From assembly GCF_003390865.1 (NCBI RefSeq), contig NZ_QMEJ01000002.1:62001-126000 (forward strand): DNA of 64,000 bases, given 5' to 3'. Below the pieces are notes generated by a model. That model saw nothing but the letters and a program-made list of their open reading frames with translations, was not told the origin of the DNA and searched no databases. The translations under genes and the position numbers were made by a program. Each line of letters begins with the position of its first letter. Position 1 is the first letter of the stretch. Below, piece by piece: positions 35,783 to 38,630 of this stretch. The stretch comes from Tropicimonas sp. IMCC34011. GTDB lineage: Bacteria > Pseudomonadota > Alphaproteobacteria > Rhodobacterales > Rhodobacteraceae.

Positions 35783-36439
35783 ATGTCCCTTCGTAAAACG
35801 CTTGCCCTGACCACCGCCGCGGTTCTCGCAGCCGGTGCCGTGTCCGCACAGGCCGTCGACGCGACCGCAACCACCGACCTCAACTTCCGTGCCGGTCCCG
35901 GACCCGACTACGAGGTTCTGGGCGTGATCGGTGCAAACGACACCGTCGCCGTGAACGGCTGCGTGGAAGCCGCCAACTGGTGTGAGGTCTCCTATGACGG
36001 CACGACCGGCTGGGCCTACGGCGAGTATCTCAACGTCCCCGTTGGCTCCGAGACCGTCGCGATCAGCACGCAGCCTGAATCCGTGACCGTCGAGACGATC
36101 GAGTACGAAGACACGCGCGCCCAGTCCGCGACCGCAGGCGCCACCGTGGGCGCCACCATCGGCGCGCTGGCCGGTGGCCCTGTCGGCGCCATCGCCGGCG
36201 GTGCGCTCGCCGGTGCGGCGCTCGGCGCTGCCGCCGATCCCGGCCCGCAGGTCGTGACCTATGTCAGCGAGAACCCGGTCGATCCGGTCCTGCTCGACGG
36301 TGAAGTCGTCGTCGGCGCCGGCATCCCCGATGTCGTCGACCTCTACGATGTGCCCGAGTCCGACTTCCAGTATGTCTACGTGAACGGCCAGCCCGTGATC
36401 GTGGACGGTGAGCGCCGGATCGTCCGCATCATCCGGTAA
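35783..36439 (+). CDS. secreted SH3-domain protein with DUF1236 tail
   Basis: The 218 residues comprise a signal peptide (cut near A23), a bacterial SH3 domain (about 28-85; TTDLNFRAGPGPDYEVLGVI, then NWCEVSYDGTTGWAYGEYL), a glycine/alanine zipper (118-150, GATVGATIGALAGGPVG) and a C-terminal DUF1236-like segment (PESDFQYVYVNGQPVIVD). SH3 domains of this type often bind peptidoglycan, and the zipper may insert into or cross a membrane. A good AGGAGA ribosome site precedes the ATG, and a strong terminator follows. Function is unknown. Confidence 0.85.
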   Translation: MSLRKTLALTTAAVLAAGAVSAQAVDATATTDLNFRAGPGPDYEVLGVIGANDTVAVNGCVEAANWCEVSYDGTTGWAYGEYLNVPVGSETVAISTQPESVTVETIEYEDTRAQSATAGATVGATIGALAGGPVGAIAGGALAGAALGAAADPGPQVVTYVSENPVDPVLLDGEVVVGAGIPDVVDLYDVPESDFQYVYVNGQPVIVDGERRIVRIIR

Positions 36440-36475: not shown

Positions 36476-36507
36476 CCCGCCTCCCGACCTTCGGGGGGCG
36501 GGTTTTT
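36476..36507 (+). terminator. intrinsic terminator after the SH3/DUF1236 gene
   Basis: A 12-bp GC-rich stem with one G-T pair (CCCGCCTCCCGA and partner) has a small loop and is followed by five T residues. It lies 37 bp after the stop codon. Confidence 0.9.
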
Positions 36508-36535
36508 CTATGCCCGGTGGTGAGTTATACGATTT

Positions 36536-36554
36536 ATGTAAAAAGCATTCACAT
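36536..36554. promoter_or_regulatory. 19-bp dyad, copy 1, upstream of the DUF2852 gene
   Basis: ATGTAAAAAGCATTCACAT has partly symmetric ends (ATGT..ACAT, AA..TT). It matches the second copy at 17 of 19 positions and begins 59 bp upstream of it. Its AT-richness stands out in this GC-rich genome. Confidence 0.6.
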
Positions 36555-36594
36555 CGCATCTTGCGGCACGGTCCCAGCCTCCCCATCTGGAATA

Positions 36595-36613
36595 ATGTAA
36601 AACGAATTCACAT
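36595..36613. promoter_or_regulatory. 19-bp dyad, copy 2, upstream of the DUF2852 gene
   Basis: ATGTAAAACGAATTCACAT is the second copy, ending 21 bp before the start codon and just before the GAGGGAG ribosome site. Its position over the leader fits repression or an mRNA-level control site. Confidence 0.6.
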
Positions 36614-36634
36614 CATCCTGAGGGAGATATCGAC

Positions 36635-37081
36635 ATGACCACGACCACCGCTTCCATGCCCCGGCCGAACTGGTTCGTCCGCGGCGAAACCTGGCTCGAC
36701 GAGCGCGGCAAGGGCGCTTGGATCGCGGCCATGGTGCTCGGTTTCATCGTATTCTGGCCGATCGGCCTTGCCGTCCTTGGCTACATGCTGGTGACCAAGC
36801 GCTTTTCCGGATGCCGGGGCCCGCGCGCCCGCACAGGGTTCTCCCGCTTCGCGACCGGCATGACGGGCTCCACGGGCAACGCGGCCTTCGATGCCTACCG
36901 CAACGAGACGCTGCGCCGGCTGGAAGACGAGCGGCAGTCCTTCGAGACCTTCCTCGATCGCCTTCGGGAGGCTCGCGATAAGGCCGAGTTCGACCAGTTC
37001 ATGGAAGAGCGCGCCAAGACCAGCGGCGAGCGTGAGACCAGCGCCGACGACTCCGAGGCGCAGCTCCCCGAGCGGGCCTGA
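36635..37081 (+). CDS. DUF2852 family membrane protein
   Basis: The 148-residue protein has one or two hydrophobic segments (about 28-54, WIAAMVLGFIVFWPIGLAVLG) and a C-terminal coiled helix rich in Arg and Glu (NETLRRLEDERQSFETFLDRL, FDQFMEERAK). This matches DUF2852, a family of alphaproteobacterial membrane proteins of unknown role. The AT-rich upstream region holds two near-identical 19-bp dyads, and the GAGGGAG ribosome site is strong. A strong terminator follows. Confidence 0.88.
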   Translation: MTTTTASMPRPNWFVRGETWLDERGKGAWIAAMVLGFIVFWPIGLAVLGYMLVTKRFSGCRGPRARTGFSRFATGMTGSTGNAAFDAYRNETLRRLEDERQSFETFLDRLREARDKAEFDQFMEERAKTSGERETSADDSEAQLPERA

Positions 37082-37103
37082 TCGCTCCAGCTTCCCCACA
37101 GAT

Positions 37104-37128
37104 GGCGGCGCCACGGCGCCGCCTTTTT
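37104..37128 (+). terminator. intrinsic terminator after the DUF2852 gene
   Basis: GGCGGCGC and GCGCCGCC form a perfect 8-bp stem with a CACG loop followed by five T residues. Confidence 0.9.
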
Positions 37129-37154
37129 CCCATCCATCGTTCCACCCCGCGAGA

Positions 37155-37616
37155 ATGACCATGATGAGCCGCACAGTTTTTCCCGGCAGGACCGGCCTGC
37201 CAGATCCTGAAGACGAAGCCGAATTCTATGCCGATGTGCCGCTCAAGCGTCTGATCGCCTGGATCGTCGATACCGTTCTCATCGCGATCCTCGTGGTGCT
37301 CGGCGTCGTCCTGACGCTGTTCACCGGACTGTTCTTCCTGCCCGTCCTGTGGCTCACGGTGTCCCTCGTCTATCGCGGGCTGACGATCATACGCTTCTCC
37401 GCGACGCCGGGCATGCGGCTCATGGGGATCGAACTCATGGACAAGGACGGCGCGCCGCTCTCGCCTATCGAAGCCTGGGCGCATACCGGGATCTATGCCA
37501 TGTCCGTCGCATTCGTCTTTCCGCAGCTGATTTCCCTTGCCACCATGGCCGCCGCGCCACGGGGCCAATCGCTGACGGACATGCTTCTGGGCACGGCGAT
37601 GGTGAACCGCAGCTGA
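37155..37616 (+). CDS. RDD family membrane protein
   Basis: The 153-residue protein has an N-terminal acidic stretch, then VPLKRLIAWIVDTVLIAIL, the RDD motif region (here with Arg and Asp spaced as in the family), and three membrane helices (about 24-48, 49-70 and 107-128). RDD proteins are of unknown or varied function; some are Na+/H+ transporters. Three ATG codons at 37155, 37161 and 37164 lack a clear ribosome site, so the start is uncertain. It is upstream of bpt, a pairing seen in related genomes. Confidence 0.85.
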   Translation: MTMMSRTVFPGRTGLPDPEDEAEFYADVPLKRLIAWIVDTVLIAILVVLGVVLTLFTGLFFLPVLWLTVSLVYRGLTIIRFSATPGMRLMGIELMDKDGAPLSPIEAWAHTGIYAMSVAFVFPQLISLATMAAAPRGQSLTDMLLGTAMVNRS

Positions 37617-37677
37617 TCGGACGGAGCGGGCGACAGGAGGGCTGACTGCCCGAGGAACGCCATTCGCATCGCGCATT

Positions 37678-37710
37678 GGGGCGGAAACTTCCGGAAAATG
37701 CCGCCCCTTC
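37678..37710 (+). terminator. candidate terminator after the RDD gene
   Basis: GGGGCGG and CCGCCCC form a 7-bp stem around a 16-nt loop that itself contains the palindrome TTCCGGAA. Pyrimidine-rich TTCTCCCCC follows. It lies in the 168 bp between the RDD and bpt genes. Confidence 0.5.
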
Positions 37711-37784
37711 TCCCCCTTGGCGAAGCGAAATCGCTGCGCTACCGTCCAGGTCTCTTGCTTCAATCGCCCGGGCCGCCCGCTCCC

Positions 37785-38630
37785 ATGCGCCATACGCTTC
37801 CAATCGCGCCGCAGTTCTACGTGACGGCCCCCCAGCCCTGCCCCTATCTCGACGGCCGGATGGAGCGGAAACTGTTCACCGCGCTGCAGGGGGATCAGGC
37901 CGAACAGCTCAACGACTCGCTTTCGAAACAGGGCTTCCGGCGCTCACAGAACGTCCTCTACCGCCCCTCCTGTGCCGATTGCATGGCCTGCCTCTCCGCC
38001 CGCATCCGGGTGGACGATTTCAAACCCTCGCGCTCGCAGCGCAGGACGCTGAAGCGCAACGGGGACCTCGTGCGCGACCCGGCCTCCCCCTGGGCGACCG
38101 AGGAGCAGTTCTCCCTCTTCCGCACCTATCTCGACAGCCGGCATGCCGACGGCGGCATGGCGGACATGGACATCTTCGAATTCGCCGCGATGATCGAGGA
38201 GACGCCGGTGCGCAGCCGCGTCGTGCAGTATCGCATGCAGCAGGGCGACCGGCCCCGCGGCACGGCCGATCCACTGACCGCCGTCTGCCTGACCGACATG
38301 CTCGATGACGGGCTGAGCATGGTCTACAGCTTCTACGACCCCTCTCTCGCGACGCGGTCCCTCGGCACCTACATCATCCTCGATCATATCGAGATCGCCC
38401 GCGCCGCAGGTCTGCCTTACATTTACCTCGGCTACTGGGTCCCCGGCAGCGCGAAAATGGGCTACAAGGCCGGCTTCGACGCTCTCGAGATCTACAAGCA
38501 CGGCAGTTGGCAGGATATCGGTGATCCCGCGCAGCACAGCAGCGAGACGCATCCTCTCTCGGTCGATCCCATCGCCGAGCAGGTCGCCAACATCACCCTC
38601 CCCGGAAGCCGCCCCGCCCCGCGCCGCTGA
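37785..38630 (+). CDS. bpt: aspartate/glutamate leucyltransferase
   Basis: Bpt attaches leucine to proteins with N-terminal Asp or Glu, sending them to ClpAP by the N-end rule. The 281 residues show the N-terminal half [18 protein letters not shown], the cysteine-containing [16 protein letters not shown], and the C-terminal GNAT-like [22 protein letters not shown] with [18 protein letters not shown]. It is related to eukaryotic arginyltransferases. The ATG at 37785 is chosen; the upstream frame has no family similarity. Confidence 0.95.

Follow-up and report, generated by a model that had tools for sequence, protein, structure and literature searches.

Proteins of the TetR family are mostly repressors and are commonly, though not universally, encoded beside their target or autoregulated, and sites of the CRP/FNR type read TGTGA-N6-TCACA or TTGAT-N4-ATCAA. 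CprB, QacR, CgmR and Ms6564 recognize 22 to 32 bp as two dimers, as described in the available part of PMC4150764. The CenKR regulon of Rhodobacter sphaeroides comes close to the case reported here in that it includes envelope genes in a relative, but the site given in the available part of PMC9275681 is a TGA-N8-TGA direct repeat and not a palindrome. In the open-access literature, we found no report of a TetR-DUF2852 pair or of the operator described below, and no characterized TetR_C_33 member with this operator. The available parts of PMC12172448 and PMC4344238 contain nothing on a DUF2852-linked TetR or its operator, and that of PMC9561847 contains no motif matching the dyads.

In this study, we closely examined two 19-bp dyads in front of a DUF2852 gene in the genome of Tropicimonas sp. 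IMCC34011, within an analyzed stretch of 64 kb (here called the window). The upstream copy, O1 (positions 36536-36554, ATGTAAAAAGCATTCACAT), and the downstream copy, O2 (36595-36613, ATGTAAAACGAATTCACAT), which lies at the presumed transcription start, are putative operators as judged by their sequence and conservation. Both are inverted repeats, i.e., of the palindromic operator form, at the promoter of the target gene. Their shared symmetric form is ATGTRAA-N5-TTYACAT, of which six of the seven arm positions are paired in O1 and likewise six of seven in O2; this symmetric core replaces ATGTAAAA-N2-3-ATTCACAT, which the initial annotation had given as the pattern to search for. Its other observations on the pair were borne out. 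By direct reading, the copies agree at 17 of 19 positions and begin 59 bp apart, a spacing also returned by a repeat search, and the stretch from 36536 to 36613 is AT-rich (45% GC versus 68% for the window). The second dyad lies just 5' of the ribosome-binding site GAGGGAGA (36620-36627, + strand, assigned from sequence) at a distance of 6 bases, and 21 bases separate it from the ATG at 36635. A search of the 3.8-Mb genome revealed exact matches solely at O1 and O2, and allowing two mismatches added 4 further places compared to 2 for a mirror control. Within the 64-kb window, no other place scored ≥11/14. The dyad pair is real and exceeds chance expectation.

The gene behind the dyads (36635-37081, + strand) encodes a DUF2852 protein of 148 amino acids (PF11014, Pfam E = 5.6e-41). 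An AlphaFold2 model (mean pLDDT 71 and a low pTM of 0.26) contains a long helix at residues 13 to 58 with a hydrophobic stretch, followed by two helices, and the product is predicted to be a small inner-membrane protein. A DUF2852 protein was reduced in a mapB mutant according to the available part of PMC6377625, which has no bearing on regulation. O1 and O2 bracket a promoter-like stretch, with a -35-like element, TTGCGG (36561-36566, + strand; common form in relatives, CTTGMA), and a -10-like element between the operators, CATCTG (36584-36589, + strand; common form, CCRATCT). Since a scan with the sigma-70 consensus called no promoter in the window, the assignment of both elements rests on conservation: the loci carrying the pair, among the matches listed, share the core CTTGMA ... 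CCRATCT in the gap between the operators, and CTTG is kept at bases 6 to 9 of this gap across relatives. With such a conserved core, the spacing would be fixed, and O2 would fall on the putative start site and O1 just 5' of the -35-like element. The upstream neighbor (35783-36439) encodes SH3_3 and DUF1236 domains with a glycine/alanine-rich middle and is followed by a terminator-like hairpin (36480-36508, + strand; 2 overlapping matches versus a shuffle mean of 0.2). As this hairpin lies 5' of DUF2852, the gene probably has its own promoter.

DUF2852 occurs in 39 of 240 genomes across the class, and in many families outside that of the window a TetR/AcrR gene is located directly 5' of it. Two of these DUF2852-adjacent homologues harbor both TetR_N and TetR_C_33 (PF00440 and PF13305). 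Orthologs were searched with a profile built from three DUF2852-adjacent TetR proteins at a cut-off of E ≤ 1e-50; matches between 1e-20 and 1e-50 were taken as no ortholog, except in G022, where the gene is split into two adjacent pieces that fall below the cut-off and was scored as present. Outside the family, ortholog and DUF2852 were found together in 25 genomes. In 24 of them, three of which had supplied the profile, the TetR gene has the same orientation as DUF2852 and lies 105 to 226 bp upstream of it; the remaining genome has the two on different contigs. The TetR gene itself carries a site (≥11/14 within 200 bp) in 19 of these 25 genomes, compared to 0.07 expected from shuffles, or in 19 of 27 once two family members are added. 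The same palindrome is borne by the DUF2852 promoters outside the family, with two matches 6 bp apart in 15 of the 21 loci listed.

DUF2852 is present in 35 of 61 genomes (the window's own plus relatives). Both genes occur in 34 of the 61, neither in 25, DUF2852 only in one (G045) and TetR only in one (G019), a co-occurrence with a Fisher P value of 7e-15, kinship ignored. For the site itself, 70 genomes with DUF2852 were considered, of which one (G218) was omitted as its DUF2852 gene sits at a contig end. All 59 genomes with a TetR ortholog have a site (≥11/14) at DUF2852, each with a shuffle P value of at most 0.015, compared to 2 of the 10 without an ortholog (P = 5e-9, kinship ignored). 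The two exceptions, G265 and G369, belong to one genus and have no ortholog at E ≤ 1e-20; both have a divergently oriented TetR-like gene beside DUF2852, whose product is 27 to 29% identical to the TetR protein of the window's genome, and the one scanned contains TetR_N and TetR_C_33. A specific regulator for DUF2852, as suggested in the initial annotation, is supported by the 8 of 10 genomes that keep DUF2852 without the TetR ortholog and also lack the site, and the TetR protein encoded beside DUF2852 in other families is the candidate that would bind it. In 44 TetR-bearing genomes, 58 of 66 ATGTNAAN5TTNACAT sites lie before DUF2852 or TetR, the only recurring targets seen there. The remaining 8 lie elsewhere compared to 1 mirror-control match, which makes private, non-recurring targets possible. 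Palindromes away from the two genes were noted at G152:C1:899296, twice on G005:C4 and once each in G001, G013, G025, G031, G332 and G336.

Among the 35 genomes with DUF2852, 30 family loci were read, one from the window's genome and 29 from relatives, and each has a site (≥11/14) before DUF2852. Loss of the paired sites in relatives that keep the gene had been named as the finding that would speak against a specific regulator; the site is retained in 30 of 30, while the pairing varies. Two separate 19-mers 57 to 60 bp apart are present in 23 loci, and the other 7 harbor a nested double palindrome of the type ATGTNAATGTNANTAACATTNACAT, in which two 19-bp palindromes overlap with a 6-bp offset to give 25 bp in total; a further upstream site exists in 2 of these 7. 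The strict palindrome ATGTGAAN5TTCACAT was found in 88 of 149 family genomes compared to 0 of 149 for the mirror control, and DUF2852 was present at all 30 places that were fetched, each from a different one of the 88 genomes. When a named collection was scanned for pairs with a spacing of 55 to 62, this yielded at least 118 loci, which we take from 80 of their titles to be mostly Rhodobacteraceae, a few being titled by class or phylum only. Among the 118 listed, 114 have DUF2852 within 250 bp downstream, and the other 4 matches are at locus edges; the spacings among the matches listed were 58 (63 loci), 59 (42), 57 (7) and 60 (2). Since the scan demanded a strict downstream site, base counts within its operators are biased, and O1 and O2 were compared instead on the 23 split pairs of the unselected family loci, in which both 7-base arms are fully paired in O2 in 16 of 23 cases and in O1 in 6 of 23. 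In the window, the DUF2852, RDD and arginyl-transferase (ATE) genes occupy 36635-38630, and these three occur together in 75 of the 118 operator-pair loci among the matches listed. A second, more distant DUF2852 copy follows closely behind the first at G018:C2:300698-301036, G032:C54:28583-28942 and L063:1617-2015.

The TetR ortholog of the window's genome (ORF G000:C5:294171-294818, E = 1.6e-70) is on the same contig, outside the window and about 196 kb from the operators, and contains TetR_C_33 (E = 5.6e-16) and TetR_N (E = 1.7e-13). The ORF overlaps the end of a polyphosphate kinase 2 (PPK2) gene (L123:644-2127, corresponding to G000:C5:293335-294818), which points to one operon. PPK2 precedes TetR in 23 of 28 TetR loci of the family (L099-L126). 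The same order was seen in all three genomes reached from named loci, which include R. capsulatus. The R. capsulatus PPK2 gene RCC02684 is listed with an FnrL site in the available part of PMC4634722; this link was dropped, as neither that site nor any FNR-like site occurs in the 641 bases before PPK2 at the R. capsulatus PPK2-TetR locus (L286). Within 300 bp before TetR, a site scoring ≥11/14 is absent from 27 of the 28 family loci, the exception being an 11/14 match 197 bp upstream. The TetR gene of the window's genome stands 196 kb from its presumed target without a site of its own, and from this absence in the family autoregulation seems to have been lost there. In two family genomes, G001 and G015, PPK2, TetR and DUF2852 are neighbors, and a single other gene separates TetR from DUF2852; this arrangement is a possible intermediate of rewiring. 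As judged by eye, the intervening gene is an MFS-like ORF in G015 and another ORF in G001, and this difference gives no hint of a common ligand.

Taken together, the sequence patterns suggest, with a probability that we estimate at roughly 0.87, that the dyads are operators of a TetR/AcrR repressor (TetR_N plus TetR_C_33) that represses DUF2852; what we infer here is that the protein binds, that its effect is repressive and not activating, where transcription starts, and that an inducer acts on it. A TetR dimer on O2 would block RNA polymerase by covering the putative start site, a second dimer on O1, just 5' of the -35-like element, could strengthen repression, and a TetR ligand would free both operators so that DUF2852 is switched on. 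The spacing of 58 to 59 bp corresponds to about 5.5 helical turns, which does not speak for simple looping.

The same protein might instead occupy both sites and activate DUF2852 from O1, given that activators often bind just upstream of -35 and that O1 is in this position relative to the -35-like element. We consider this unlikely, since O2, which overlaps the presumed start, is the better palindrome (fully paired in 16/23 versus 6/23), most nested forms have a site at the start region only, and repression is the usual mode of action in the TetR family. A chance or structural repeat that no regulator reads is contradicted by the conserved sequence, position and spacing and by a mirror control of zero; AT-richness is the one feature in favor of such a repeat and is common in promoters, and we regard this explanation as practically negligible.

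It is also quite improbable that a different factor, a CRP/FNR-type protein or the response regulator CenR, binds the dyads and that the correlation with TetR is indirect. The half-site TGTGA does resemble that of CRP, but both window sites have an N7 and not an N6 spacer, and CRP/FNR-type sites were rejected for this reason. A DUF2852 protein is also among the differential proteins or genes of a Bradyrhizobium microoxia study, as far as the available part of PMC6515984 goes. A global factor should have many sites, where here we see one locus in the genome, and outside the family the TetR gene carries the site itself in 19 of 25 genomes. For CenR, the direct repeats TGA-N8-TGA given in the available part of PMC9275681 differ from the inverted repeats of the window, and membership in its regulon was rejected.

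Under repression by TetR, DUF2852, a conserved gene without an assigned function, gains a named candidate regulator and an operator sequence, and the ligand of the regulator, once found, would tell when the DUF2852 protein is needed. More tentatively, and with clear doubt, we propose that a single-target TetR switch conserved in many families of the Alphaproteobacteria was rewired in the family of the window: TetR may have joined the PPK2 operon and given up the operator in front of its own gene, while DUF2852, its one conserved target, would have been relocated next to the RDD and arginyl-transferase genes and would have exchanged the nested 25-bp operator for two promoter-flanking sites. If so, DUF2852 would be tied to polyphosphate or nucleotide state, and the locus would exemplify the rewiring of a regulatory circuit, of which G001 and G015 may still represent intermediates.

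Regarding known systems, there is nothing unusual in a TetR repressor encoded next to its target; new, as far as the open-access literature goes, are the assignment of a regulator and an operator to DUF2852 and a rewiring that is readable in the family. The nested 25-bp form, known here from its sequence pattern, resembles the operators of the QacR/CprB type in length and overlap only, with reference to the available part of PMC4150764, and the 19-mers of the window differ from them in being separate and not nested. TetR/AcrR repressors with TetR_C_33 are matched more closely: the TetR protein of the window's genome has both domains, the operators are palindromic, and outside the family the regulator adjoins its target and carries its own site, whereas in the family of the window the regulator is mostly encoded away from its target and lacks its own site.
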